Origin: an uncultured Peptococcaceae bacterium
GTDB lineage: Bacteria; Bacillota; Dehalobacteriia; UBA4068; UBA4997
Direction of reading: 5' to 3'
NCBI GenBank assembly: GCA_947647555.1
Contig: CANSKT010000006.1
Span: forward strand, 1 to 39,579
Length of the DNA stretch: 39,579 bases
The notes beneath the pieces are model-generated. The model had not been told where the DNA came from and did no database searches. It worked only from the letters and a program-made list of their open reading frames with translations. The stretch's first letter is position 1; the number at the start of each line of letters is the position of its first letter. A program made the position numbers and the translations under genes. Shown piece by piece: positions 5,624-37,472 of the stretch.

Positions 5624-6187
5624 TTACTTATTTAAGGCCGCCGCCTGACTTTGCGCCATTTGAAAACCCTCTTGATAGGCAGTTAAATTAAGAGGCAAAA
5701 TTTTGGCCTTAAAATTATTAGCCAGGGCTCTGTGTACTGCCGCCTCTGACACCACATTCGTCAGACCAACCAGCACGCCCAACGCCAGAACATTGGCGGA
5801 AAGTTCATTTTGCAGCTTATCCCGGGCTGTTTCCAGCATAGGCAGACGACAAAGCTGCACCGTATCGCCCTCCCGACCGTCCGGCTGCACAAAATCGCTG
5901 TCACAGATTAAAAGACCGCCCTCGGCAATATCTCCGGCATATTTATTATACGCTTCCTGGGAAAGACAAAGCAACACGTCCGGCACTGTTACCTTGGGAT
6001 AATAAATTGGCGTATCCTTGATAACAACCTCACCCTGACTGCTGCCGCCGCGTGATTCCGGCCCGTAAACCTGGCTTTGCGCAGCAAAATAACCGTCATA
6101 AAGCGCCGCCTCTGCCAGCAGCACCGCACAGCGAATAATGCCTTGACCGCCGGTGCCGGAAAATCTAACCTCATACTTCATTTTCAT
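5624..6187 (-). CDS. korC: 2-oxoacid:ferredoxin oxidoreductase, gamma subunit
   Basis: This is the gamma subunit of a thiamine-diphosphate, iron-sulfur 2-oxoacid:ferredoxin oxidoreductase, which converts a 2-oxoacid plus CoA to acyl-CoA, CO2 and reduced ferredoxin. The N-terminal VRFSGTGGQGI motif, SQVYGPESRGGSSQGEVVI and the final helical region are typical of the gamma domain family, and the size of about 185 residues is normal. ATG 6187 (MKMKYEV) has AAGG at 6 nt; ATG 6181 (MKYEV) is the alternative. The start overlaps the 3' end of korB. Gene order delta-alpha-beta-gamma matches 2-oxoglutarate-type enzymes, but a branched-chain (Vor) specificity cannot be excluded. Confidence 0.93.
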   Translation of the reverse strand: MKMKYEVRFSGTGGQGIIRCAVLLAEAALYDGYFAAQSQVYGPESRGGSSQGEVVIKDTPIYYPKVTVPDVLLCLSQEAYNKYAGDIAEGGLLICDSDFVQPDGREGDTVQLCRLPMLETARDKLQNELSANVLALGVLVGLTNVVSEAAVHRALANNFKAKILPLNLTAYQEGFQMAQSQAAALNK

Positions 6188-7013
6188 CACCAGCCTTTTC
6201 ATTATCTGCCTGCTTGTCTGCCAATAAACGCGCCATTTCCTCGCAGTATTCCACAGCTTCAGTTTCAAAATGCTTGCCGATTATAATTTTATCCGTAAGT
6301 TCTTCATCACTCATTTTAGCGGCCTGCTGCACCGTAACCGTGTTATCGCGCAGCCAGAACAGCATATCAGCCGGCTCCGGAATATTATTGTAACGTCCAA
6401 AGGAGATTGGACAGGTAGCAACAGCCTCCACCACAGCAAAGCCTTTGTGCCGGCTGGCTTCAACCAGCAGATTGGTCAGCTGTGCCGCATGGAAAACATC
6501 ACCGCGCGCTACATAAGTGGCGCCGGCGCCTTTAGCCAAGTCCACCAGATTAAAAGCGCGGTCTATGCTGCCATAAGGCGCGGTGGTGGCACGCTTGCCC
6601 GTCGGCGTCAGCGGCGAGAACTGGCCGCCGGTCATGCCGTAAATGCTGTTATTGATAACGATTGCCGTCATATCTATGTTGCGGCGGCAGGCATGAATAA
6701 AATGATTGCCGCCAATAGCCGCCGCGTCGCCATCACCCATCACTACAAAGGTTTTCAGACGCGGTTCACAAACCTTAGCGCCGGTGGCAAAAGCCAAAGC
6801 CCGGCCATGCGCCGTATGCACGGTATTTAAATCCATGTAGCCGGACATACGCGAGGAACAGCCAATGCCGGAAACCAGCAGAATATCGTCCTGCGGATAG
6901 CCCAGCTTATCCAGGGCTCTGGCCAGCGCCGACATTACAATGCCGTTGCCGCAGCCCGGGCACCAGATATGCGGCAGATTATCCCGAAAATACTTTTCAT
7001 ATACAGCCTCCAT
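6171..7013 (-). CDS. korB: 2-oxoacid:ferredoxin oxidoreductase, beta subunit (TPP-binding)
   Basis: The 280-residue beta subunit binds thiamine diphosphate and Mg. It shows the WCPGCGNG motif (Cys18, Cys21), the TPP motif starting GDGDAAAIGGNH and continuing through NNSIYGMTGGQ, and the downstream SPLTPTGK that family members share. The start ATG at 7013 overlaps the korA stop by one base (TGATG), indicating translational coupling, and has an AGGGAGGTGG ribosome binding site. The exact 2-oxoacid used (2-oxoglutarate, branched-chain, or other) is not decidable here. Confidence 0.95.
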   Translation of the reverse strand: MEAVYEKYFRDNLPHIWCPGCGNGIVMSALARALDKLGYPQDDILLVSGIGCSSRMSGYMDLNTVHTAHGRALAFATGAKVCEPRLKTFVVMGDGDAAAIGGNHFIHACRRNIDMTAIVINNSIYGMTGGQFSPLTPTGKRATTAPYGSIDRAFNLVDLAKGAGATYVARGDVFHAAQLTNLLVEASRHKGFAVVEAVATCPISFGRYNNIPEPADMLFWLRDNTVTVQQAAKMSDEELTDKIIIGKHFETEAVEYCEEMARLLADKQADNEKAGDENEV

Positions 7014-8212
7014 CAGCGCCCACCTCCCTGTTTAACACTATGTTCCGCCATTTGTTCAATCACAGCCTGCATTATTGGCGCCGGCGCAATCAAACGACCG
7101 TTTACCTGGGTTATTGAATGGAAAGGCACGCCGCTGCCAATTAAAGCCGCCTTTGCCTCCACTGCCAACTGACCCATATTCATCTCCGGCATCACTACCA
7201 GCTTTTTATCGGCGCATATCTCCCGGATTTGTTCCGCCGGGAATGGCCAGATTGTTTTCAATCGCAACAGACCAACCTTATAGCCCTGGCTTTGCAGTTC
7301 CACCATGGCCTCCTGCGCAGAACGCGCCACTGCACCATAGGCGATGATTACGCAGTCCGCACCGGCACAATCCAGCTGCTCAACCTCGGCAATTTCATTA
7401 ACATGGTCCTCAATTTTATGGCACAACCGATGCATAAAAGTTGCCACCTGCTCCGCATCTGCCGTATAAAAACCAGCCTGATTATGGGTTAAACCAGTAA
7501 AATGATAACGCTCGCCCTGGCCCAAAGGCACAAAAGGCGGCACGCCGCTTGGCGTGTTAGCAAAAGGCAAATATTTACCGCCGCCGGCGCTGGTTGCCGC
7601 TTTATCGACAAAATCAGCCCGGTTAATGATTTCCGGCTCCAAATCCTGTGAAATATCAAAACCCTCGCGCAAATGACCGATTTTTTCGTCTAACAACACT
7701 ACCACCGGCGTACGATACTGCTCCGCCAGATTAAACGCGCGAATAGTTGTATAATAAGCCTCCTGCACTGATGACGGTGAAAGCGCTATAATGGAATGAT
7801 CGCCGTGCGTTCCCCAACGCGCCTGCATAATATCACCGGATTGCGGCATGGTGGGCAAGCCGGTGCTGGGGCCAAAACGCATAACATCAATAATCACCAG
7901 CGGAATTTCCGCCACAGCCGCATAGCCGATTAACTCCTGCATCAGGGAAAAACCCGGCCCGGAAGTGGCCGTAAAGGCTTTATGACCCACCATGGAAGCG
8001 CCAATCATCGCACCAATAGAGGCAATCTCATCTTCCATTTGCATAAAATAACGCCCCAGTTTGGGGAATTCTCTGGCAATATATTCCGCAATCTCCGTAC
8101 TGGGCGTAATCGGATAACCGCCGAAAAATGAAGCGCCGGCTTTAATTGCGCCCAAAGCACAGGCTTCATTACCCTGCATCAACTGAACATGCTTATTTTT
8201 AATTTCAGTCAT
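7013..8212 (-). CDS. korA: 2-oxoacid:ferredoxin oxidoreductase, alpha subunit
   Basis: The 399-residue alpha subunit contains the pyrimidine-binding domain of the TPP site and the transketolase C-terminal-like domain. Visible motifs are GNEACALGAIKAGASFFGGYPITPSTEI at the N-terminus, MEDEIASIGAMIGASMVG, and SGPGFSLMQELIGYA. These are typical of 2-oxoglutarate and branched-chain type enzymes with separate alpha, beta, gamma and delta genes. Its first codons overlap korD by 8 nt. The enzyme is cytoplasmic and oxygen-sensitive in known members, which fits an anaerobe. Confidence 0.95.
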   Translation of the reverse strand: MTEIKNKHVQLMQGNEACALGAIKAGASFFGGYPITPSTEIAEYIAREFPKLGRYFMQMEDEIASIGAMIGASMVGHKAFTATSGPGFSLMQELIGYAAVAEIPLVIIDVMRFGPSTGLPTMPQSGDIMQARWGTHGDHSIIALSPSSVQEAYYTTIRAFNLAEQYRTPVVVLLDEKIGHLREGFDISQDLEPEIINRADFVDKAATSAGGGKYLPFANTPSGVPPFVPLGQGERYHFTGLTHNQAGFYTADAEQVATFMHRLCHKIEDHVNEIAEVEQLDCAGADCVIIAYGAVARSAQEAMVELQSQGYKVGLLRLKTIWPFPAEQIREICADKKLVVMPEMNMGQLAVEAKAALIGSGVPFHSITQVNGRLIAPAPIMQAVIEQMAEHSVKQGGGR

Positions 8213-25380: not shown

Positions 25381-26859
25381 TTAAGCCTCCATATCCCAAT
25401 ATGACAGACCTGTCAGGCTCTCTACCGAGCCTTCCATGTATTCCACCAAAACGTCCGGCTGCAAACCAAAATAAATTGTCAGCACTAAAAGCACCAGCAT
25501 GGGCAACATCTCATACCAGTGAATATCCTTGCACCCGGCCAGTTCCGCCGGCATAGTGCCATAAGCCACGCGCTGAAAAGCCCACAGATAATAACCCACG
25601 GCCAAAACCGCACCCAGCGCCACCAGCAGCACCACCCAGCCAAATGAGCGGAAAACACCCAGCATTACTGAAAATTCGGCGAAAAAGCCCATAAAACCGG
25701 GAATGCCCATTGAAGCAAAGAAAGCCAAAATCAGCATTGTCATGGCGGCCGGCATCTTGCTATAAAGACCACCCAGCCGACTGATTAAACGCGTGCCGGC
25801 ATGGTGCTGAATAACGCCACAGCCCATAAACAGCATGGCGGAAATCAGACCATGCGCCACCATCTGGAAGACCGCGCCCATAATGCCTATTTCATCAAAA
25901 CTGGCAATACCAATCAACACAAAACCCATATGGCTGATTGAGGAATAAGCAATCAACTTTTTCAAATCGTCCTGCTTAAAGGCTACAAACGCACCGTAAA
26001 CAATGCTTAACAGCGCCAGAATTACCACCAGCCAGGTATATTGCCGGGCCGCCGTAGGGCATAGCATATAGGCCACGCGGATTAAACCGTAGCCGCCCAT
26101 CTTCAGCAGCACGCCAGCCAGCAACACCGAAGCCGCCGTGGGCGCTTCCACGTGCGCGTCCGGCAGCCAGGTATGCACCGGCACCACCGGCAGCTTGACG
26201 CAGAACGCAAAGAGCAGAGCCGGGAAAACCAGCAGCTCAAAGTTCAAATCAAAGCCAACCTCCGTAATCTCCGGAATGGAAAAGGTATAATAACCCAAAA
26301 CGTCCGCCGCTTTGAAGAACATGGCGCCAATCGCCAACAGCATTATCAGTGACGCCACATGCGTATAAATCAGGAACTTCATGGAAGCATAGCTACGACG
26401 TTCTCCGCCCCAAATGCCAATCAGGAAAAACATCGGGATAAGCACAACTTCCCAGAAAATATAAAACAGGAAGAAATCCAAGGCCGAAAAAACGCCCAAA
26501 ACACCAGTTTCCAGCACCAGTAAAAGGCCGTAATAAAACGGCGCACGTTCAGTAACGTCCCAGGAATACACAACCACCAAAAAGCAAAGCAAAGTTGTCA
26601 GCATAAACAGCGGCAAGGAAAGGCTATCCAAGCCCACCGCAAAGGAAACGCCAAAAGCCGGGAACCACTTTGTTTCCTGCAAAAACTGATAACCGTCAGC
26701 AGCAGCTTCATAACCGGACAGCATCACCAAACTGCCGATAAAAACCGCCCCAGTGCAGATTATTGCCACATATTTAGACAGCTGCGGCTGACTGCGCAAA
26801 AGCAGCAACAGCAACGCGCCAACTAATGGTAAAGCAAGCAAAATCGTGATAATACTCAA
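25381..26859 (-). CDS. nuoM: Complex I subunit NuoM, second copy (antiporter-like)
   Basis: The 492-residue protein is a 14-helix MrpD-like antiporter subunit of complex I. It has the hallmark charged residues of the proton channel: Glu in LFYIFWEVVLIPMF (helix 5), Lys in VKLPVVPVHTWLPDAHVEAPT (helix 7), Lys in LLKMGGYGLIR (helix 8) and Glu in GFFAEFSVMLG (helix 12). Sequence and motifs are of NuoM type (chain M), so with the copy at 28345 the operon has two NuoM. It begins at TTG 26859 with AGAGGTGG at 7 nt. It lies 27 nt after nuoN. This additional gene is what makes the complex unusual. Confidence 0.94.
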   Translation of the reverse strand: MSIITILLALPLVGALLLLLLRSQPQLSKYVAIICTGAVFIGSLVMLSGYEAAADGYQFLQETKWFPAFGVSFAVGLDSLSLPLFMLTTLLCFLVVVYSWDVTERAPFYYGLLLVLETGVLGVFSALDFFLFYIFWEVVLIPMFFLIGIWGGERRSYASMKFLIYTHVASLIMLLAIGAMFFKAADVLGYYTFSIPEITEVGFDLNFELLVFPALLFAFCVKLPVVPVHTWLPDAHVEAPTAASVLLAGVLLKMGGYGLIRVAYMLCPTAARQYTWLVVILALLSIVYGAFVAFKQDDLKKLIAYSSISHMGFVLIGIASFDEIGIMGAVFQMVAHGLISAMLFMGCGVIQHHAGTRLISRLGGLYSKMPAAMTMLILAFFASMGIPGFMGFFAEFSVMLGVFRSFGWVVLLVALGAVLAVGYYLWAFQRVAYGTMPAELAGCKDIHWYEMLPMLVLLVLTIYFGLQPDVLVEYMEGSVESLTGLSYWDMEA

Positions 26860-26886
26860 TTTATAGCCACCTCTCTTTCGCCTATT

Positions 26887-28344
26887 TTACCAGGGCAACA
26901 TACTATTAAACAATGCGCTGCTGCAAATTTCTGTCAACCAGTTAGGCAACAGACCAAAGGCAAGCAACAAGGCCACAGACAACCACAATGCCAGCTGATA
27001 AGAACGTCCGCTGGGCTTGATTTTATCAGCAGCCGGCGGCAGCAACTCGATTTCCGCCGGACGCATATACATCTCCCGAATTACGGCTGCATAATATACC
27101 AGCGAAAGCGCACTGTTCAACACCAAAATCAGTGCCAGCACCAGATACCAGCCACCCAGACCAACAGCCGGCACCACCATCAGCATTTTACCCCAGAAGC
27201 CCAGCAGCGGCGGCACACCGCCGAATGATAACAGCAACAGCATCAGAGCAGCCGCCAACCCCGGCATTTGTTTGCCCAGACCACGGAAGTGCTGCATCAT
27301 GGTACCGCCCTTGCGCTCCAAAACAATTTGCAGCGCAAAGAAGCAGGCAATCGCCATCAACGCATGCGCCAGAATATGCACGAAAGAACCCACAATGGCA
27401 GTTCCGCCGACCACAAAACCAACGCCAATATTACCGGCATGCGCCACACTGGAATAAGCAATCATGCGCTTAACATCTTTCTGCTTTAAAGCCAGCACAT
27501 TGCCAACCGTCATGGTAACAGCGCACAAAACACCCAACAGCAACGCAGCCAGCGGCGCAAACACCGCCGAATAAACCACGATAATTTTCAGCGCCACCAC
27601 AAAAGCACCCTTCTGCGTTACGCCAGACAAAAAGCCCGTGGTTGGCGAGGGAGAACCGGTGTAGGTATCCGCCGCCCACCAGTGAAACGGCACCAGCGCC
27701 ATTTTATAGCCAAAACCGGCCAGCAGTAGCACCAAAGCCACAATCAGCAATGGGTGCGCTCCCAATATGGCCATCGCCTGCGCGCAGTTCTGCAAATTCA
27801 TCGTGCCGGTAAAACCATATAATAAGGAAAGACCATACAAAATCAAAGCTGAAGCAAAGGCGCCGCTGATAAAATATTTCAGTGCAGCCTCGCCGCCCTG
27901 CGAATTGTTCAACTCTGCCAGCGGCAACACATATGTGGTAATGCTCACCAGTTCAAACGCCACCACCAATGTGATAAAATCCGTGGAACTGGGAATAATC
28001 AGCAAACCAAGCATCGCCATTAACAGCAGCGCATAATACTCTCTGGCCCGATAAACCCTGGCCGTAAAATCATGCGAGCCGATAACATTCAACAAGGCCA
28101 GCCCCAGCAGCATCACCTTAACCAGCACGGCAAAATTATTAACCGCATAAGCGCCGCCCATAATATAATCATTTACCCCCCAAAGGGATAAACACATCAG
28201 CAAATCCGCCGCCAGACCGCCGGCCGCAACCAGCCAGGCCATAGTCCGCGCACGCCCGGGCAGCAACATAATTATCACTGCCAACACCAGCAGCAGCAAT
28301 TCCGGCAAAAGCATAATCAACTGTTCAAGAGTCAGTGAATTCAT
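26887..28344 (-). CDS. nuoN: Complex I subunit NuoN
   Basis: The 485-residue protein is the NuoN antiporter-like subunit, normally located next to NuoK in the membrane arm. Characteristic segments are LVVAFELVSITTYVLPL (helix 5 Glu), KMALVPFHWWAADTYTGSPSPTTGFLS (helix 7 Lys and the NuoN-type signature WAADTY-GSP), and KDVKRMIAYSSVAHAGN. It starts at ATG 28344 directly at the end of nuoM1, with GGGAGG upstream. Only one NuoN is encoded here. Confidence 0.95.
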   Translation of the reverse strand: MNSLTLEQLIMLLPELLLLVLAVIIMLLPGRARTMAWLVAAGGLAADLLMCLSLWGVNDYIMGGAYAVNNFAVLVKVMLLGLALLNVIGSHDFTARVYRAREYYALLLMAMLGLLIIPSSTDFITLVVAFELVSITTYVLPLAELNNSQGGEAALKYFISGAFASALILYGLSLLYGFTGTMNLQNCAQAMAILGAHPLLIVALVLLLAGFGYKMALVPFHWWAADTYTGSPSPTTGFLSGVTQKGAFVVALKIIVVYSAVFAPLAALLLGVLCAVTMTVGNVLALKQKDVKRMIAYSSVAHAGNIGVGFVVGGTAIVGSFVHILAHALMAIACFFALQIVLERKGGTMMQHFRGLGKQMPGLAAALMLLLLSFGGVPPLLGFWGKMLMVVPAVGLGGWYLVLALILVLNSALSLVYYAAVIREMYMRPAEIELLPPAADKIKPSGRSYQLALWLSVALLLAFGLLPNWLTEICSSALFNSMLPW

Positions 28345-29862
28345 TTATCTCACACCTCCCAGCAAGTCGATAATGTAACCGGTGCCCTGCGCCACCATAT
28401 CCGTAATCGGCGCCGGCCAAACGCCAAGCACCAAAACCAATACGCCCAAAACCAGCAGCGGCACTGTCTGAAACCACTGCAAATCATGCGGCTTTTTCTC
28501 CTGCAAATCCGCGGAGGGCTGGCCAAAATATGCCCTTTCCAAAGCCCAGAGATAATAAGCCGCCGTTACAATCATGGAAAGCATGGCAATCACCGTCAAC
28601 AGCTTGTTAACACTGAAAGCGCCCAGAAAAACCTGCAACTCTGGAATAAAACCAAGCAGGCCGGGCAGACCAACCGAAGCAAAGAAAGTGAATACCGTAA
28701 TCGCAGAAAGCCGCGGCAGCACGGAAGCCACACCGCCCAAATCGCCAATTCGCCGCGTGCCAACGCTATGCTGCAAAATACCGCAAACCATAAACAGCAT
28801 GGCAGAAATCAGACCATGCGCAAACATTTGCAAAACCGCACCATTAAATGCCCTCTCCTGCAACATTGCCATGCCGAAAAGCAACAAACCCATATGGCTT
28901 ACCGAAGAATAAGCAATCATCTTCTTTAAATCGTCCTGCGCCAGCGCCAAAACCGCGCCCCACAACATACTGATAATACCCAGCACCGCCATAGGCAGCG
29001 CATAATGCACCGCGGCCTCCGGCATCAAACCAAAAGCAAAGCGCACCAAGCCATAACCGCCCATTTTCAACATCACGGCCGCCAGGAAAACGGAACCACC
29101 CGTCGGCGCTTCCACGTGTGCGTCCGGCAGCCAGGTATGAAACGGCACCGTCGGTATTTTCACCGCAAAACCAAAGAATAAGGCCGGGAAAATCAGATAT
29201 TGCAAATTGAGCGGCAGACTAACCCCACCAGAACGCAGCATTTCACTAATAGCCACAAAATCAAAGGTAAAAATGCCCGTCTGCTGGAAATTCCAAATAA
29301 CAATGGCAAAAATACCCACTAACATCACCAAAGACGCCACATGTGTATATATGAAGAATTTAATTGCCGCATAACGCCGCCGGGGGCCGCCCCAGCCTAA
29401 AATCAGGAAATACATGGGAATTAAAACCAGTTCCCAGAACAAATAGAACAGGAAAAAATCCAGCGCCACAAAAACGCCAATCAGACCACATTCCAGCAAC
29501 AGAAGCAGCGTGAAAAAGGTACGCAAATCCTTATGCTCATCATAGGAAAGCAGCACCACCAACGGCGTCAGCAGGCTGGTCAGAAAAACCAGCGGCATGC
29601 TAAGACCGTCCAGACCGACTGTGTAGGTAATACCCAAACTGTCAATCCAATTCACCGAGCCGAAGAATTGATAATTACCAGACGGCAACTGCCAATCATA
29701 CAAAGCCAGCATATAAAGATTAACCGCCAATGGCAGCAGTGAAACAGCCAGCGCCAGACCCTTAATAAAGGCCGGTTGTTTATTCAGCGTACCGCCGATA
29801 AAAACCACGGCCGCGCCAAGCAGGGGCAGAAACAGCAGAATGTTCAGCAAATCAAAACTCAT
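28345..29862 (-). CDS. nuoM: Complex I subunit NuoM, first copy (antiporter-like)
   Basis: The 505-residue protein is a NuoM-type subunit. The channel residues are present: FLFYLFWELVLIPMYF (helix 5 Glu), VKIPTVPFHTWLPDAHVEAPT (Lys), LKMGGYGLVR (Lys) and GFIPELQVFLG (helix 12 Glu). It is clearly different from the second NuoM in many positions, so this is not a recent or assembly duplication. The start is ATG 29862 (MSFDLLNILLF), overlapping the nuoL stop by 4 nt (ATGA); the open frame extending to 29994 lies inside nuoL and is not used. Gene order L-M-N is canonical, with the extra NuoM placed after NuoN. Confidence 0.95.
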   Translation of the reverse strand: MSFDLLNILLFLPLLGAAVVFIGGTLNKQPAFIKGLALAVSLLPLAVNLYMLALYDWQLPSGNYQFFGSVNWIDSLGITYTVGLDGLSMPLVFLTSLLTPLVVLLSYDEHKDLRTFFTLLLLLECGLIGVFVALDFFLFYLFWELVLIPMYFLILGWGGPRRRYAAIKFFIYTHVASLVMLVGIFAIVIWNFQQTGIFTFDFVAISEMLRSGGVSLPLNLQYLIFPALFFGFAVKIPTVPFHTWLPDAHVEAPTGGSVFLAAVMLKMGGYGLVRFAFGLMPEAAVHYALPMAVLGIISMLWGAVLALAQDDLKKMIAYSSVSHMGLLLFGMAMLQERAFNGAVLQMFAHGLISAMLFMVCGILQHSVGTRRIGDLGGVASVLPRLSAITVFTFFASVGLPGLLGFIPELQVFLGAFSVNKLLTVIAMLSMIVTAAYYLWALERAYFGQPSADLQEKKPHDLQWFQTVPLLVLGVLVLVLGVWPAPITDMVAQGTGYIIDLLGGVR

Positions 29863-31751
29863 AACAGGCTCACACCCCCAATCGCCACCAGCAGCAACAC
29901 AAACACGCCGCCCAACACCAGCGCCAAATAGCCCTGCAAACCGCCGGACGCATAACGCCGCATATAACCGCCGAAGCCGCTGACTACAAAGCAAAAGCCG
30001 CGTATCAGGCCATCGACCACATAATAATCAAACCAACGGCAGAAAGTTGCCAGCCCCAGGTTAACCCTGGCTACCAAATTCACCAGCCCGTCAATTACAT
30101 ATTTATCAATCACATCGGCCAACTCCGCAAAACGCACAGCAAACCAGTAAGAAATCTTTTCATAAAGTCGGTCTATATAATAACGGTTCAGAAGCAGCTT
30201 ATGCAACGGCGCGGCAGCTTTGGCCGCCTTATCCGCCGAGAAAACATTGAATAAATAAACTGCCGCCGAAAGACCAATGCCGATTATCACCGCAAATATG
30301 GAAACTATCATCGGCAAATGCGTGGACGCACTGTGCGTATGCCCCGTTAAAAGTACGGTTATCGGCTGCGTCAAAGCGCCACTACCCAGCGCGAAGAATG
30401 ACAACACCACCAACGGCGCAATCATCGGCACACTGCTTTCATGGCCATGATAATCGCCGCGCTTTGGGCCACAGAAAACGACAAAGAACAAACGGAACAT
30501 ATAAAATGCCGTCAACAAGCTGGTCAAAGCCAGCAGCCAGAAAACTGGCGGCGCGGCCAAATATGCAGCCAACAAAATTTCGTCCTTACTCCAAAAACCA
30601 GCAAAAGGCGGCAGGCCGGCAATAGATACCGTGGCGCAAAGGATAGTCAGGCCGGTTACTTTCTGATATTTGAGCAAACCGCCCATCTCATAAATATCAT
30701 TGGTACCGGTACCATGAATAGCCGAACCAGCGCCCATGAACAGCAGTGCCTTAAAGAAAGCATGGTTAACCAGATGCAAAATAGCAGCCACATAGTTCAA
30801 CGCGCCCAGCGATACCACCATAAAGCCCAGTTGGCTCAGAGTGGAAAATGCCAGAATACGCTTGAAATCACGATTAACTACCGCCATCAAAGCCGTACCC
30901 AGTGCGGTAACCGTACCGATAATCAGCATGAAATCCGTAGTTTTGGGCGTTAAAGCAAACAATGGGAAAAGCCGCGCGCACAGATAAATGCCAGCCTTAA
31001 CCATGGTGGCCGCATGAATTAAAGCAGAAACCGGCGTGGGGCCCTCCATAGCGTCTGGCAGCCAGACATGTAACGGGAACTGGGCTGATTTGCCAATCAC
31101 ACCGCCAAAGATACAAAGCGTGGCAATCGTCAGCCAAAATTCATCATAATTACCGGCCGCCGCCTGGCTCAACATGACACTATATTCCACACTGCCAAAC
31201 ATATCAAACAGCAGAATAATGCCAACCAACATAACCACATCGCCGACACGCGTTACCAGAAAGGCCTTTTTGGCCGCAGCCGCCGCACTGGGCTTAAAGA
31301 ACCAGAAACCAATCAGCAAATATGAGCAAAGACCCATAATCTCCCAAAAGATAAAGGCTTGCAGCAGGTTATCGGCCAATACCACCGAAAGCATGGAAAA
31401 GACGAACAACTGCACCTCTGCAAAAAAGCGCAGCAAACCACTTTCATGCTCCATATAACCATAGGCATAAAGCAAAATCAGAGTTGCCAGAAAAGCCACC
31501 AGCAACAGCAAAATCAGCGATAGCTTATCCAGCAGAAAACCAAATTGCAAATTATCAAACCAGGTGAACGACAAACTGGCAGACTCCCCTGCAAAAACCG
31601 CCGGCGCACAGGCCAGCGCCAGGCAAAATGAAAGCACCGTGCCGCACATACCCAGCCAGGCAGATTTCAGTCCCAGCTTTTTGCCTAAAAGCAGCGTTAA
31701 CAGCAATGTGACCAAAACCGGCAATGGTATTAACCAAAAATAACCCAGCAT
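29859..31751 (-). CDS. nuoL: Complex I subunit NuoL with elongated lateral helix
   Basis: The 630-residue NuoL is the distal antiporter subunit, with LPDAMEGPTPVSALIHAATMVKAG (family signature), and the C-terminal amphipathic helix that runs along the membrane arm. From the Tyr of RLYEK (residue 530) to the final anchor helix motif GGLQGY there are about 79 residues, compared with roughly 50-55 in typical NuoL proteins recalled from other bacteria. The excess is a near-tandem repeat: DKYVIDGLV (549-557) and DYYVVDGLI (575-583), 26 residues apart. A longer lateral helix fits a membrane arm with one more antiporter subunit. It starts at ATG 31751 with GGGAGAAA. Confidence 0.95.
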   Translation of the reverse strand: MLGYFWLIPLPVLVTLLLTLLLGKKLGLKSAWLGMCGTVLSFCLALACAPAVFAGESASLSFTWFDNLQFGFLLDKLSLILLLLVAFLATLILLYAYGYMEHESGLLRFFAEVQLFVFSMLSVVLADNLLQAFIFWEIMGLCSYLLIGFWFFKPSAAAAAKKAFLVTRVGDVVMLVGIILLFDMFGSVEYSVMLSQAAAGNYDEFWLTIATLCIFGGVIGKSAQFPLHVWLPDAMEGPTPVSALIHAATMVKAGIYLCARLFPLFALTPKTTDFMLIIGTVTALGTALMAVVNRDFKRILAFSTLSQLGFMVVSLGALNYVAAILHLVNHAFFKALLFMGAGSAIHGTGTNDIYEMGGLLKYQKVTGLTILCATVSIAGLPPFAGFWSKDEILLAAYLAAPPVFWLLALTSLLTAFYMFRLFFVVFCGPKRGDYHGHESSVPMIAPLVVLSFFALGSGALTQPITVLLTGHTHSASTHLPMIVSIFAVIIGIGLSAAVYLFNVFSADKAAKAAAPLHKLLLNRYYIDRLYEKISYWFAVRFAELADVIDKYVIDGLVNLVARVNLGLATFCRWFDYYVVDGLIRGFCFVVSGFGGYMRRYASGGLQGYLALVLGGVFVLLLVAIGGVSLL

Positions 31752-31775: not shown

Positions 31776-32255
31776 TTAATTCTTCACATTCTCCGTGTTA
31801 TCCTGAATAACCTGGTCGGCCTCTGGCTCCGGTTCTATCTCTCCTGATAAATCCTCCACCACTTGCCAATCCTTATCTTCCTGCATAGCCTCCAGCATCT
31901 CCGCATAGGTTTTGGTTTCCCATGGCTCAATGCTGATATTATAGCTTAATGTTGTATCTTCCAAACTCAGCTGACCAAAATCGCCCAATTCCCTTTCTCT
32001 TATCAAATAGGCTGTGGCGGCATGGTCCTGTGTATCATAAGTCTGCGCAAAACGCATGGAAACCAGCTTGCCCTGCTCCCAGGTCATGGTATTGGTAACA
32101 TACCGCAGACCGTTTTCCTTGTTCACATTCTGCTCCACCACCAAAACCGCGTCCTTGCCCGGTTCCGGCTCGGTGCAGGCCGTAAGGCCAAACAACAAAC
32201 TTAAAAGCAGCAGTGGCCAGAACAATCTTTTTAAGTTTTTTCCTTGCATTCTCAT
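31776..32255 (-). CDS. Predicted lipoprotein inside the complex I operon
   Basis: The 159-residue product has a basic N-terminus, a hydrophobic stretch (LFWPLLLLSLLFGLTAC) and a lipobox LTAC with lipidated Cys27, followed by TEPEPGKDAVLVVEQNVN. The mature domain is acidic, beta-like in pattern, without cysteines beyond the lipid one, and ends in an acidic tail rich in Glu. No family is recognised and it is not a known complex I subunit. It lies 44 nt after nuoK and 24 nt before nuoL, so it is co-transcribed. ATG 32255 is chosen with the GGGGTGAGG region; 32249 is the alternative. It could be an accessory or assembly factor on the outer face, which is inference. Confidence 0.82.
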   Translation of the reverse strand: MRMQGKNLKRLFWPLLLLSLLFGLTACTEPEPGKDAVLVVEQNVNKENGLRYVTNTMTWEQGKLVSMRFAQTYDTQDHAATAYLIRERELGDFGQLSLEDTTLSYNISIEPWETKTYAEMLEAMQEDKDWQVVEDLSGEIEPEPEADQVIQDNTENVKN

Positions 32256-32299
32256 GCGCCTCACCCCTAAATACATAAATCCCCAAGCAAACCGGCATA

Positions 32300-32725
32300 T
32301 CAGCCGCGCAATGTATGGAACTGTTCCACATCAATAGTTCCGTTTCTTCTATATAAATACAGGCCAATCGCCAGCCCAACCGCAACTTCTGCCGCGGCCA
32401 GCGCCAACACCAGCACAGCCATTACACTGCCGGAACTTTGGCCAAGATATTGACTGAAAGCCACAAAATTAATATTAGCGGCATTAAGCATCAATTCAAG
32501 AGAAATAATCAAAGCAATCAGATTACGGCGCGTCATCACACCAAGCAGGCCAATCGTGAAAAGCGCGGCCGCCAAAAGCAGATAATGCGTCAGGCTTAAA
32601 TGAAAAACAAAATACACGCCCTGATGAAACATTTCAGCCAGGTCAAAATTGCTTAACCAATTGACAACGGCCGCCAAACAAGGCAACAGCACACGGTCAA
32701 AAATTCTTTCAATCGTTTCAAGCAT
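32300..32725 (-). CDS. nuoK: Complex I subunit NuoK with N-terminal extension
   Basis: NuoK is the small MrpC-like subunit with three helices. The core from residue 44 (SLTHYLLLAAALFTIGLLG) matches normal NuoK, including the essential membrane Glu residues in IISLELMLNAANINF and ALAAAEVAVGLAIGLYLYR. The gene starts at ATG 32725 with AGGGGG at 8 nt. This gives 141 residues, about 41 more than typical; the additional N-terminal part (LETIERIFDRVLLPCLAAVVNW...) is amphipathic to hydrophobic. Internal starts lack a ribosome binding site, so the extension seems to be translated. Confidence 0.93.
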   Translation of the reverse strand: MLETIERIFDRVLLPCLAAVVNWLSNFDLAEMFHQGVYFVFHLSLTHYLLLAAALFTIGLLGVMTRRNLIALIISLELMLNAANINFVAFSQYLGQSSGSVMAVLVLALAAAEVAVGLAIGLYLYRRNGTIDVEQFHTLRG

Positions 32726-32737
32726 TTCCGCAGCCCC

Positions 32738-33289
32738 CTACTCGGTTTTTTCCCCGGCTTCCAACGGCTCCGGCTCCATTTTGCTGGAAGTCACAATCGC
32801 CGCCACCAACGCCGCCAACAGCAACGCCGCCACTGTTTCAAAAGCAATTACATATTGATTTAACAGGCCGTCCGCCAACTCGGTATAAGGCAGTGGCGCA
32901 ATATCGGCGGTGTCCATAGCCAGCGGCCAACCGCTGAAATGCGTATAGAAAATCGCCCCGGCCAAACTGCCGCCCACCAGTATGGCCGCCAAAATACTCG
33001 TCAGCCATTTATGCCGCCACTTATTGGTCTGGCGCATATCCGCCGCGCTACGGTTAATCAAAAACAGCGCCAACACAATCAAAATCGCCACCGAACCGGC
33101 ATAGACAATCACCTGTACGCCGCCCAGATAATCAGCCTGCAAGCTGAAATAAATCCCGGCCACACAAAGCAGCGCCGCCATAAAGGATAAAAAAGCATGT
33201 ATCATATTACGAAAAATCAACGTACCCAGAGCAAAAAGCAACAACAGGCCGCCTAACGCCCAAAAGGTTAAAGTTTGTAAAATCTGCAT
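32738..33289 (-). CDS. nuoJ: Complex I subunit NuoJ
   Basis: The 183-residue membrane subunit has five predicted helices and the conserved block LGGVQVIVYAGSVAILIVLALFL around the pi-bulge helix TM3. Length equals that of other NuoJ. The start is ATG 33289, sharing one base with the nuoI stop (TGATG), with AAAAGGAGGGG upstream. It ends with a short acidic tail. Confidence 0.94.
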   Translation of the reverse strand: MQILQTLTFWALGGLLLLFALGTLIFRNMIHAFLSFMAALLCVAGIYFSLQADYLGGVQVIVYAGSVAILIVLALFLINRSAADMRQTNKWRHKWLTSILAAILVGGSLAGAIFYTHFSGWPLAMDTADIAPLPYTELADGLLNQYVIAFETVAALLLAALVAAIVTSSKMEPEPLEAGEKTE

Positions 33290-33798
33290 CACTTTTCCCC
33301 TCCTTTTGGCAAATCCGGCGCGGCCACTTCAGCCGCCGGCGATACAGCTGGCCGCGGTGGTACCGGCTTTGGCAGAGGCGGCTTGGCTCCATACGTGGAA
33401 AGCTGCTTATCCATATTATTATTCGCCAGCAAATCCTGCGGCACATCGGCCGAATTATAAACTGCCGTTTCAAACTCCAACGTCAGGTGCAGACAACTCT
33501 TGGGACAAGCCTCCACACAAAGACCGCAATAAAGACAATACTGCCGCTCCATCACAAACTCGGTGCAATACTTTTTATTATTTTCGTCTTTCTCAAATTT
33601 CTGCCGAATAACCTTATTAGGACAGGCCATGGCACAAAGTCCGCAGCTTATGCAGGCTTCCTGATCAAGCGCGAACATACCGCCGCGCCAACGTGTTGGC
33701 AAATGCGGCTTTTCCTCGGGGTATTTTTCCGTCAAACGCGGACTTACCGCCTCCTTGACCGTCACCCCCAGGCCCTTGAGAATACCCTTTCCAAACAT
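33289..33798 (-). CDS. nuoI: Complex I subunit NuoI (2 x [4Fe-4S])
   Basis: NuoI carries clusters N6a and N6b, which pass electrons to NuoB. The 169-residue protein has Cys49-x2-Cys52-x2-Cys55-x3-Cys59-Pro and Cys88-x2-Cys91-x2-Cys94-x3-Cys98-Pro. The C-terminal 45 residues or so are Pro/Ala/Lys-rich (PPLPKPVPPRPAVSPAAE) and appear disordered, an unusual tail. In the absence of NuoEFG, NuoI is a plausible docking site for ferredoxin. It follows nuoH by 15 nt. Confidence 0.95.
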   Translation of the reverse strand: MFGKGILKGLGVTVKEAVSPRLTEKYPEEKPHLPTRWRGGMFALDQEACISCGLCAMACPNKVIRQKFEKDENNKKYCTEFVMERQYCLYCGLCVEACPKSCLHLTLEFETAVYNSADVPQDLLANNNMDKQLSTYGAKPPLPKPVPPRPAVSPAAEVAAPDLPKGGEK

Positions 33799-33813: not shown

Positions 33814-34860
33814 CTATATTAAATACAGCACAACACCGGTTACCAACATATTAAGTAAGGTTAATGGCACCAGAATTTTCCAGCAAAAACTAAGCACATA
33901 GTCAGCCCGGATACGCGGCAACGTCCAGCGCACCCAGATAAACACCGACATAATAACAAATGTTTTTAAGATAAACCAGAGCCAACCCGGCAGAAACGGA
34001 CCGCTAAAACCGCCCAAAAACAGCGTAGTCGCCAAACCGGCCGCCACAAACATATTACAATATTCCGCCAGATAAAACAGCGCATAACGCATGCCTGAAT
34101 ATTCAGTGAAAACGCCGGCCGTCAACTCACTCTCACCCTCCGGCAGGTCAAACGGCGCCCGGTTACATTCCGCCACAGCGGAGATAATGTAAACCACAAA
34201 AGCCAGCGGCTGCACAAATACCAACCACAAATGCTGCTGCTGAAAATGAACAATTTCGGTCAGGTTAAAAGTTCCAGCCACCATAATCACGCTTAAAAGC
34301 GCAAAAGCCTGTGGCACTTCATAACTGATAGCCTGATTAACCACGCGCATGCCGCCAATCAGCGAATATTTATTGTTAGAAGCATAACCGGCCAGCAACA
34401 CCGGCAAAGAAGCCAGCGTGGTAACAGCCAAAACATAAACCACACCCAGTTTCAAATCCAGCGCCGCCATGCCCTCGCCAAAGGGAATAGCCGCCAACGC
34501 CAGCATCGGCGGTACAAAAGCCAACAGCGCCGCCAGTAAATGCACTGGCTTATCCGCCTTATCTGGCACAATATCCTCTTTCATTACCAGCTTGATTGCA
34601 TCGCCAATCGTTTGCAGCCAGCCGTTCGGCCCCAGACGGTTCGGCCCTGGTCGCCGCTGAATATAACCAGCCAGCTTGCGCTCCCAGATTACATAAAACA
34701 AAGCGCAAAGCACACAGACAACAACAATAGCAACCCAGTAAACCGCCGTCATCAAAACGTCGGTCAGGCCAAGCGGCAGCCCCAGCCACCCCAACAGCCA
34801 ATTAAAAACCCAGCGCACCAGGCCGGCAATATTAACAAAAATATTGTTAATAAATTCCAT
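33814..34860 (-). CDS. nuoH: Complex I subunit NuoH
   Basis: The 348-residue membrane subunit forms part of the quinone cavity. Conserved segments are ERKLAGYIQRRPGPNRLGPNGWLQTIGDAIKL, the loop MRVVNQAISYEVPQ, and AECNRAPFDLPEGESELTAG with the acid cluster, plus FIWVRWTLPRIRADYVLSFCWK near the end. The lipophilic quinone could be menaquinone, as usual in this group. It starts at ATG 34860, 49 nt after nuoD, the largest gap in the first half of the operon. Confidence 0.96.
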   Translation of the reverse strand: MEFINNIFVNIAGLVRWVFNWLLGWLGLPLGLTDVLMTAVYWVAIVVVCVLCALFYVIWERKLAGYIQRRPGPNRLGPNGWLQTIGDAIKLVMKEDIVPDKADKPVHLLAALLAFVPPMLALAAIPFGEGMAALDLKLGVVYVLAVTTLASLPVLLAGYASNNKYSLIGGMRVVNQAISYEVPQAFALLSVIMVAGTFNLTEIVHFQQQHLWLVFVQPLAFVVYIISAVAECNRAPFDLPEGESELTAGVFTEYSGMRYALFYLAEYCNMFVAAGLATTLFLGGFSGPFLPGWLWFILKTFVIMSVFIWVRWTLPRIRADYVLSFCWKILVPLTLLNMLVTGVVLYLI

Positions 34861-34909: not shown

Positions 34910-36040
34910 TTAGCCATCAATCTCGCCCAGAACAATATCAAAGCTGGCAATAATGGAAACCAAATCCGCCACCTTATGCCCGGGCATAATTTTTTCAAAA
35001 ATAGCAATATTGTCGAAAGACGGCCGCCGGAAATGCACACGCAGCGGATTGAGTTTGCCCTCTGATGCCACCAGACAGCCCATAATACCCTTGGGATTTT
35101 CCGTCTGAGCATAGGCTTCGCCTGCCGCCGGCTTTAAGACCTTGGGAATTTTCGCCATAATTTCGCCTGCCGGTTCCTCTTTCAATGCCGCATAAATTTC
35201 TTTAATCAGCTGAAAAATCTTTTCAACCTCCAGCATACGCTGCACATATCGAGCATAGCAATCGCCGGCCGTCAACACCGGCACTTCAATTTTAAAGCGG
35301 TCATACAGACAATACGGCGCGTCGCGGCGTAAATCATAATCCACGCCAGAAGCGCGCAGGTTCGGCCCGGTCAGCGCATAATCCATTGCGTCCTCCGCAC
35401 TGATTACGCCAATCCCCTTGGTACGGCGCAGAAAAATTTCATTTTCATCGACCAGCTTATGATACATCTCAATAAAACGCGGCGTTTCTGCAACCAGCTT
35501 TTGATAAGCCACATCAAATTCTTCATTAATATCCGCCTGCACGCCGCCGTAACGAATATAACTCTGCGTCATACGGGCGCCACACAGCGCCGACATACAA
35601 TCCAGCGCATATTCACGCTCCTGAAATGGATAAAACACGCCAGAAACAGCGCCCAAATCCATGATATAAATGCCAACGCCTACCATATAAGAGGCCAAAC
35701 GCATAATCTCACAGGTCAGCATGCGCAACAGACTGGCCCTCGCCGGAACCTCCACACCCAGCAGCTTTTCCACCGCCAGTACATAAGGCAGGTTATTATT
35801 AACGCCAGCCAGATAATCCAAACGGTCAGTATAAGGCAACCCCTGCAAATAGGTGCGACTTTCCAGCAGCTTTTCCATACCCCGGTGCAGATAACCGATT
35901 TTGGTATCCACGCCAATACAGGTTTCACCGTCCATTTCCACCAGCATATGCAAAACACCGTGCGTGCTGGGGTGTTGGGGGCCAAAATTCAGCTGATAAA
36001 CCTCGCTGTAACGGCCCTGCTTATTTGTTTCAGTGTTCAA
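34910..36040 (-). CDS. nuoD: Complex I subunit NuoD (49-kDa type)
   Basis: NuoD lines the quinone-binding pocket together with NuoB. The 376-residue protein has LNFGPQHPSTHGVLHMLVEMDGE near the N-terminus with the quinone-site His, MERTY-type context altered to MEKLLESRTYLQGLPYTDRLDY, and the C-terminal block ASFDIVLGEIDG. Most NuoD end in an Arg at this final position; here it is Gly. It is a stand-alone NuoD rather than a NuoCD fusion. The start is TTG 36040 with AGGAGG at 8 nt, overlapping the nuoC stop by 4 nt. Confidence 0.96.
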   Translation of the reverse strand: MNTETNKQGRYSEVYQLNFGPQHPSTHGVLHMLVEMDGETCIGVDTKIGYLHRGMEKLLESRTYLQGLPYTDRLDYLAGVNNNLPYVLAVEKLLGVEVPARASLLRMLTCEIMRLASYMVGVGIYIMDLGAVSGVFYPFQEREYALDCMSALCGARMTQSYIRYGGVQADINEEFDVAYQKLVAETPRFIEMYHKLVDENEIFLRRTKGIGVISAEDAMDYALTGPNLRASGVDYDLRRDAPYCLYDRFKIEVPVLTAGDCYARYVQRMLEVEKIFQLIKEIYAALKEEPAGEIMAKIPKVLKPAAGEAYAQTENPKGIMGCLVASEGKLNPLRVHFRRPSFDNIAIFEKIMPGHKVADLVSIIASFDIVLGEIDG

Positions 36041-36507
36041 TCCAGCTGCCTCCTGCCCTGATATTTATTGGGCTGATGCACATAATCTTTGCGCAGCGGC
36101 CAGCCCTCAAACCCCTCCCAAAGCAAAATACGCTCCAGCCGAGGGTGATTTTTAAACACAATACCAAACATATCATAAACCTCGCGTTCCAGCCAGTTGG
36201 CGGCCGCCCAAACCGGGCAAACGCTCTCCACCACCGGCTCCTCGCGCGAAACATCAACTTTTAAGGTAATCGTATCGCCATTCTGATAGTTGCAAACCTG
36301 ATACAACAGCCGGAAATAGCCCTGCTCCAGATAATCTACCGCTGTTATATCCGCCAGAAAAGCATAACCGCCGGCTTTTAACTCCCGGCACAACGGCACC
36401 AGCGTCATCAAATCAACTTTATACTCACAATCGGTATCCGGCAGCGGCTCCACCATTAAACGAAACTTTTGCTGCACCATCGCAGCAACTTCCTGCTTAT
36501 TTAACAT
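36037..36507 (-). CDS. nuoC: Complex I subunit NuoC (30-kDa type)
   Basis: The 156-residue protein shows the family block [40 protein letters not shown] near its end. It is a peripheral-arm scaffold subunit. ATG 36507 (MLNKQEV) is used instead of the adjoining GTG; AAGGTGG lies upstream. The start overlaps the nuoB 3' end by 11 nt. Confidence 0.95.
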
Positions 36508-37069
36508 CACGCACCACCTTCTGCCTTTCCGGGTGCCGCAATTTGGCTTTCAGTTGCAGCATACCGTCTATAATCGCTTCTGGCCTAGGCGGACAGCCCG
36601 GAATATAAACATCAACCGGCACCACCTTATCCGCACCAGCCACCACAGCATAGGAGTCCACAAAGGGCCCGCCGCTGATAGCGCAGCTGCCGATAGCAAT
36701 AACCCATTTAGGCTCCGGCATCTGATGATATAAAAGTTCCACCGAGGGACGCATCTTCTCCGTTATTGTACCTGCCACCAGCATAACATCGGCCTGCCGG
36801 GGCGAGTTGCGAAAAACCTCAAAACCAAAGCGCGACATATCAAAACGCGTCTGCGTGGTACAAATCATCTCAATCGCGCAACAGGCCAGACCAAATTGTA
36901 GCGGCCAGAGTGACCAGCCCGTACCCCAGCGAAAAAGCTTATCCAGACTGGTAAACAAAATACCGCGGCTTTCCAACTCCTCCGGCGTCAGCAAATCATG
37001 CGTATTGGCTGGGTCGCCCTCCGGCATACCAACCCGACGCGGAAACAAAATATTAGTTTTCAGTGCCAT
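36497..37069 (-). CDS. nuoB: Complex I subunit NuoB (cluster N2)
   Basis: NuoB holds the terminal [4Fe-4S] cluster N2 that reduces quinone. The 190-residue protein has all four ligands: the tandem Cys63-Cys64 ([10 protein letters not shown]), Cys129 (GSCAISGG) and Cys159 ([10 protein letters not shown]). The N-terminal 40 residues ([27 protein letters not shown]) are longer than in many NuoB. Start ATG 37069 has AGGAGG at 10 nt and overlaps nuoA by 10 nt; an in-frame extension to 37180 lies inside nuoA and is rejected. Confidence 0.96.
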
Positions 37070-37416
37070 TGCAAGGCGCCCTCCTTCCAAGCATAAACCA
37101 AACCAGCTGCTAAAATTCCAATAAACACAAACATCTCCAGCAAGGCCGCCAGCCCCATCTCTGTAAAGCAAAGCGCCCACGGCAGCAGAAACATGGTTTC
37201 AACATCAAATAAAAGAAAAATCAAACCGGTCACAAAATAGGACGGTTTGAAGCGTACCCAGGCATCACCCAAAGGCAGCATACCACACTCATAGGTGATA
37301 TTCTTCTGTTTATAAGGATTATGGGGCTGCAAAAGACGCGAAACAATTAAAGCCGCGCAAGCAAAAAAAACAGCACCAATAAATAGCAAACCCACAGCCG
37401 CATACTGAACCAACAT
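37060..37416 (-). CDS. nuoA: Complex I subunit NuoA
   Basis: The 118-residue subunit has three membrane helices and the motifs [48 protein letters not shown], including the Cys-containing loop and the conserved DVE. It is the first gene of the operon. ATG 37416 (MLVQYAAVG) is chosen because GGGGAG sits 8 nt upstream; the ORF could begin at 37446 or 37431 but without a spaced ribosome binding site. Confidence 0.95.
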
Positions 37417-37472
37417 ATTTATTCTCCCCATTTCAGCTGCGCCCAAACCGCGCCGCCATATATAATATATCT

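Follow-up and report, generated by a model that had tools for sequence, protein, structure and literature searches.

The window, the whole 39,579-nucleotide stretch of DNA analysed here, belongs to a draft genome of 2.17 Mb (G000), in which it is contig C6; the source is an uncultured Peptococcaceae bacterium, a gut organism related to Dehalobacterium. Its minus strand carries a complex I operon in the order nuoA-B-C-D-H-I-J-K-lipoprotein gene-L-M1-N-M2. All core complex I genes, A to D and H to N, are present, and nuoL, nuoM1, nuoN and nuoM2 are intact. nuoE, nuoF and nuoG were not found within the operon, as in the 11-subunit forms of complex I. The N-terminal extension of NuoK is conserved in the genus, which is that of Candidatus Avidehalobacter, and in the alignment it is absent from G001, a genome of another family, and from G036 and G048. 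The lipoprotein-like gene, LppX, is conserved in the genus only (G001 lacks it), and its product drew no match in Pfam or NCBIfam; the AlphaFold2 (AF2) model (pLDDT 74.8) has a weak fold resemblance to YehR (2joe) and to a pneumococcal protein (2mvb), with E-values of 0.03 to 0.05.

Table 1. Complex I operon and neighbouring electron-supply genes in the window. HL, lateral helix of NuoL.
Feature	Position	Strand	Remarks
nuoA	37060..37446	-	family profile match and operon conservation
nuoB	36497..37069	-	start placed at the ATG giving MALKTNILF...; ORF opens further upstream
nuoC	36037..36510	-	family profile match
nuoD	34910..36040	-	operon conservation; used in H+D tree
nuoH	33814..34860	-	family profile match; used in H+D tree
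nuoI	33289..33798	-	two 4Fe-4S motifs
nuoJ	32738..33292	-	operon conservation
nuoK	32300..32725	-	Pfam PF00420 begins at residue 47; N-terminal extension of ~42 residues
LppX, lipoprotein-like	31776..32276	-	signal peptide with ...LTAC lipobox; between nuoK and nuoL
nuoL	29859..31751	-	630 aa, long-HL type
HL of NuoL	29952..30182	-	residues 524-600; one continuous helix predicted (AF2)
HL repeat copy 1, DKYVIDGLV	30081..30107	-	NuoL residues 549-557
HL repeat copy 2, DYYVVDGLI	30003..30029	-	NuoL residues 575-583
nuoM1	28345..29862	-	505 aa; channel residues EKKE; ATG start overlaps nuoL stop
nuoN	26887..28344	-	485 aa
nuoM2	25381..26859	-	492 aa; EKKE; TTG start behind AGAGAGG; sister of nuoM1
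2-oxoacid:ferredoxin oxidoreductase gamma, beta, alpha genes	5624..8212	-	Pfam PF01558, PF02775, PF01855; context, outside the complex

By their sequences, M1 and M2 are both true NuoM proteins with a full set of channel residues. They score 531 and 517 bits on the NCBIfam model NDH_I_M (cut-off 263.8), NuoL also scores above its own NCBIfam cut-off, and the Mrp and Hyf models give both NuoM about 140 to 215 bits, under those models' cut-offs. A first-pass annotation of this DNA had raised the possibility that one "NuoM" belongs to an Mrp or hydrogenase clade and is merely placed in the operon, and a complete-looking Mrp antiporter operon does exist elsewhere in the genome (L054, contig C5, 6450-13106). 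With both proteins above 500 bits on NDH_I_M, below the Mrp and Hyf cut-offs and inside the NuoM tree, this reading is refuted. Read against E144, K234, K265 and E407 of Escherichia coli NuoM, both M1 and M2 have EKKE, and NuoL and NuoN each have their own channel residue sets, as the first-pass annotation had seen. Pumping is held to require conserved Lys/Glu pairs in every antiporter subunit (PMC9271201). Both NuoM are thus intact in these residues, unlike the second NuoM of the hybrid "2M" complexes: in the 2M operons, M2 of Nitrospira (4/4) and of Chloroflexi (8/8) carries Leu or Ile at the K234 position. Most Bacillota with a short HL likewise have Leu or Ile there in their single NuoM. 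The same replacement of this TM7 lysine by Leu or Ile marks a large NuoM clade, which includes L050, L098, L096, L131 and other short-HL loci as well as the M2 of L126 and L149.

The L-M-N-M order recurs in seven species of the genus, the studied one included, and in G001, so the arrangement is no assembly artefact. Within the genus both NuoM persist even where identity falls to about 74-78%, and in the family of G001 M1 is 62% and M2 70% identical; this retention across the genus and a second family indicates that both are under selection. Every genome with a complete locus encodes M1 and M2 in one operon. In G027 the sequence breaks off inside nuoN, and nuoL contains a TGA; G032 (90% complete) gave an Mrp-like match only. 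Among 300 genomes sampled across the phylum, the 18 other operons inspected have one nuoM each, a few of their contigs ending nearby. The nearest named records by NuoL are Candidatus Avidehalobacter gallistercoris (74%), whose epithet points to the chicken gut, and a Bacillota metagenome-assembled genome (MAG) from goat caecum (78%). A comparison of the class Dehalobacteriia reported complex I from no order other than Dehalobacteriales (PMC10327494); the studied locus probably belongs to a different order.

Counted between the fixed YID and QxY anchors of NuoL, HL is 84 residues long here; in E. coli it has 55, and in each of four relatives from the same class, all with one NuoM, 58. The insert relative to the same-class relatives is exactly 26 residues, matching the first-pass estimate. 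AF2 predicts a single unbroken helix of 77 residues, after which comes the last membrane helix; the mean pLDDT is 84.3 for the whole chain, and local values are about 58-79 across the HL stretch. Within HL, the near-tandem motifs DKYVIDGLV and DYYVVDGLI lie 26 residues apart, at the positions first proposed for them, and the periodicity is significant in the studied NuoL alone (permutation p = 0.0008). In a self-comparison of 40 long-HL NuoL, 26 is the sole offset with a positive mean score, and a profile of long-HL NuoL matches both of its copies to the one motif present in solved NuoL (cyanobacterial and Paracoccus). Judged from these comparisons, the tandem repeat is common to the whole long-HL family and the insertion is an old internal duplication. 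The proposal that the insertion arose by duplication at this locus fails, as the repeat is older; the family-wide periodicity of 26 residues rules out a duplication in this lineage specifically.

All 13 of the other 2M operons that we found have an HL of 84-87 residues. Many operons with a single nuoM, from Bacillota, Omnitrophota and others, have the same 84-residue HL with the same repeat, so a long HL does not by itself identify 2M, and the first-pass use of the longer helix alone as the mark of a fourth antiporter falls. The related question of whether single-NuoM relatives share the HL length has a divided answer: these Bacillota, Omnitrophota and others do, and the taxonomically nearest relatives, of the same class, do not. 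One gene above the NuoM cut-off genome-wide accompanies a long HL in 11 genomes (G061, G146, G299, G233, G080, G228, G252, G333, G334, G335, G336), and six of them (G061, G299, G080, G228, G334, G335) yield no more than three antiporter subunits at E <= 1e-40. G228, a single contig that is 99% complete, has a long HL and only L, M and N. A second nuoM lies elsewhere in the genome for 13 of the 24 single-nuoM long-HL operons. Two further arrangements were seen in the survey: in L139, from an Actinomycetes MAG, HL has 86 residues and a further nuoM-nuoN pair, beyond L-M-N, lies upstream of nuoA, and L091 (G080), with a long HL and one nuoM in the order K-L-M-N-A-B-C-D-H-I-J, is another possible mosaic.

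The long HL of one-nuoM genomes means that HL length is no proof that both NuoM share one complex. M1 and M2 might instead be used in alternative three-pump complexes, each carrying either M1 or M2 and tuned, for example, to different ions or conditions, the long HL being inherited and unrelated to antiporter number. The 11 one-nuoM genomes with a long HL, six of which have only L, M and N as detectable antiporter subunits, show that a long HL is compatible with three antiporter genes. This reading nevertheless seems improbable to us: M1 and M2 lie in one operon wherever the locus is complete, every one of the 2M operons compared (13/13) has a long HL, and a three-pump arm would leave about 39 Å of the 26-residue HL step unexplained.

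The same genomes admit a further possibility, that long-HL complexes always hold two NuoM, the product of a single nuoM filling both places, with the studied locus a later split into paralogues. Two identical NuoM neighbours would keep both HL repeats alike, so greater likeness of the copies is expected in single-nuoM genomes. Over 19 positions, the copies share 7.8-8.9 identical residues in single-nuoM long-HL NuoL, versus 4.0 in hybrid and 5.8 in paralogous 2M NuoL (Mann-Whitney p between 3e-7 and 1e-3 by set and measure, a test that ignores relatedness). The sister relationship of M1 and M2 also accords with such a split. Against these points, the Myxococcota 2M locus L129 (9/19 identical) is off the trend, and for 13 of the 24 single-nuoM operons the genome has another nuoM elsewhere. 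No solved structure with a long HL turned up in the PDB copy searched, and we found no NuoM count for such complexes. HL insertions have already been noted in complexes I_1 and I_2 of Ca. Manganitrophaceae, where they were read as able to take extra pump subunits or as transitional towards or away from doing so (PMC9040806). We hold the later-split reading to be doubtful, if somewhat less so than alternative three-pump complexes; it is compatible with our preferred explanation and goes beyond it. Its generalisation, in which long-HL complex I would be a widespread four-pump architecture and one-nuoM genomes would install two NuoM copies side by side, is correspondingly tentative.

The two nuoM genes of this locus trace to a duplication of their own. 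A careful NuoM tree (LG+C20, 56 rows) unites M1 and M2 of the lineage in a single clade (100/100), and their split predates the branching of G001. A tree that puts M2 together with its counterparts in Chloroflexi and Nitrospira is rejected (p-AU 2e-63), as is one that joins it to those of Chloroflexi alone (8e-7). Gene conversion was considered as the source of the sisterhood and discarded, the identity between M1 and M2 showing no local conversion tract. The sister clade and the lack of such a tract together indicate that NuoM was duplicated within the lineage. The M1 and the M2 of Chloroflexi and of Nitrospira fall in distant clades, which suggests that their second NuoM was recruited. On these trees, the 2M architecture studied here is an independent origin by duplication of its own nuoM, answering the first-pass question of a separate origin. 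The 2M kind is described as having arisen several times, so a separate origin is compatible with the 2M label. The Myxococcota/deltaproteobacterial locus L129 is a 2M operon in the order L-M-M-N with E-F-G; both of its NuoM belong to one clade and have EKKE, and it is perhaps a further independent NuoM duplication.

NuoH and NuoD have a different history from NuoM. In a tree of NuoH and NuoD (H+D), the lineage groups with G048, a short-HL, single-NuoM member of the Bacillota (100/100), and grouping with long-HL Bacillota is rejected (p 4e-102). For NuoM, it is the short-HL Bacillota that are rejected (p 1e-7), and the long-HL Bacillota are borderline and not rejected (p 0.053). The disagreement between the NuoH/NuoD and NuoM trees indicates a mosaic operon. 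NuoL was dropped as a witness of long-HL ancestry: a quick tree favoured a long-HL home, and a careful one allows a short-HL home (p-AU 0.365). The mosaic claim, a reading of gene trees, therefore stands on NuoM and H+D, and we name no donor of the antiporter module.

Taken together, the locus probably encodes a complex I with four antiporters (L, M, M' and N) and no NADH module, arisen by duplication of nuoM within the lineage and encoded by a mosaic operon. The two NuoM would be neighbours, flanked by NuoL and NuoN, and the long HL of NuoL would span all three inner subunits, one repeat of about 26 residues beyond the usual. NuoH and NuoD would derive from the short-HL Bacillota enzyme and NuoM from elsewhere. 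Electrons, most likely from reduced ferredoxin, would enter via NuoI and reduce menaquinone, and the menaquinol would be re-oxidised by an SdhCAB-type fumarate reductase. A fourth complete channel would add one ion per two electrons (about 5 versus 4).

Family searches of the genome found a MenA-like UbiA prenyltransferase and an SdhCAB-type fumarate reductase/succinate dehydrogenase. A 2-oxoacid:ferredoxin oxidoreductase, encoded 17 kb away within the window, is a possible source of reduced ferredoxin. With ferredoxin at about -0.42 to -0.5 V and menaquinone at about -0.07 V, each pair of electrons releases roughly 65-80 kJ, which about matches the need of five protons near 0.15 V; NADH to menaquinone gives about 47 kJ, too little for five protons. 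This energy span would make a fourth pump plausible with ferredoxin as donor. Most likely the enzyme is a menaquinone-reducing pump that is fed by ferredoxin and has one additional channel, its higher stoichiometry being a prediction. In Desulfitobacterium the 11-subunit enzyme appears to produce menaquinol, and ferredoxin is among the candidate donors (PMC11238625). An unlinked cluster of the genome (L190, 737-6516) encodes a NuoE-like protein, a NuoF-like protein and then a 1165-aa protein in which a GltD-like NAD(P)H oxidoreductase is fused to a NuoG-like part; it resembles an uncharacterised third cluster described for the class (PMC10327494). Its products more likely form a soluble electron-bifurcating enzyme, one that has no characterised close relative, but they could in principle dock, so that ferredoxin is not the sole possible donor.

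The 2M complex I of Nitrospira and Chloroflexi was reportedly treated by Chadwick et al. in 2018 (ISME J). It is also described in PMC9040806, PMC6606698 and PMC7117926. The present locus shares with it a second NuoM in the cassette, an HL longer by about 26 residues and the core nuo genes, and with several of its members a missing or incomplete NADH module. With a second true NuoM and the lengthened HL, the locus bears out the 2M assignment of the first-pass annotation. It differs in gene order (L-M-N-M versus L-M-M-N), in having sister paralogues where the other M2 comes from a distant clade, in keeping the TM7 lysine in both NuoM, and in the lipoprotein gene and NuoK extension. The short-HL Bacillota complex I, within which NuoH and NuoD are nested, likewise lacks nuoEFG in its operon and is likely menaquinone-reducing, but its HL measures 58 residues and its one NuoM has no TM7 lysine. 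The long-HL single-nuoM enzymes of Bacillota and Omnitrophota, a grouping from the present work, share the 84-residue HL, the 26-residue repeat and EKKE, and differ in having only one nuoM gene. A long HL is also found in Complex_I_1, _2 and _3 of Ca. Manganitrophaceae; in Complex_I_3, MrpD-like subunits replace NuoL and there are five pump subunits (PMC9040806).

These results would add an independent origin of four-pump complex I, here in gut anaerobes, through the copying of a complete NuoM. Since the duplicated NuoM is complete, and not recruited without the TM7 lysine, it is a cleaner candidate for a real extra channel. They also correct a sequence rule, as a long HL need not mean a second nuoM gene: either HL length drops as a marker, or many ordinary-looking operons build four-pump complexes. 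If long-HL complexes do always hold two NuoM, the inner pump subunits could be counted directly from sequence by their HL repeats, and the studied locus would be a homomeric NuoM pair split into two paralogues.
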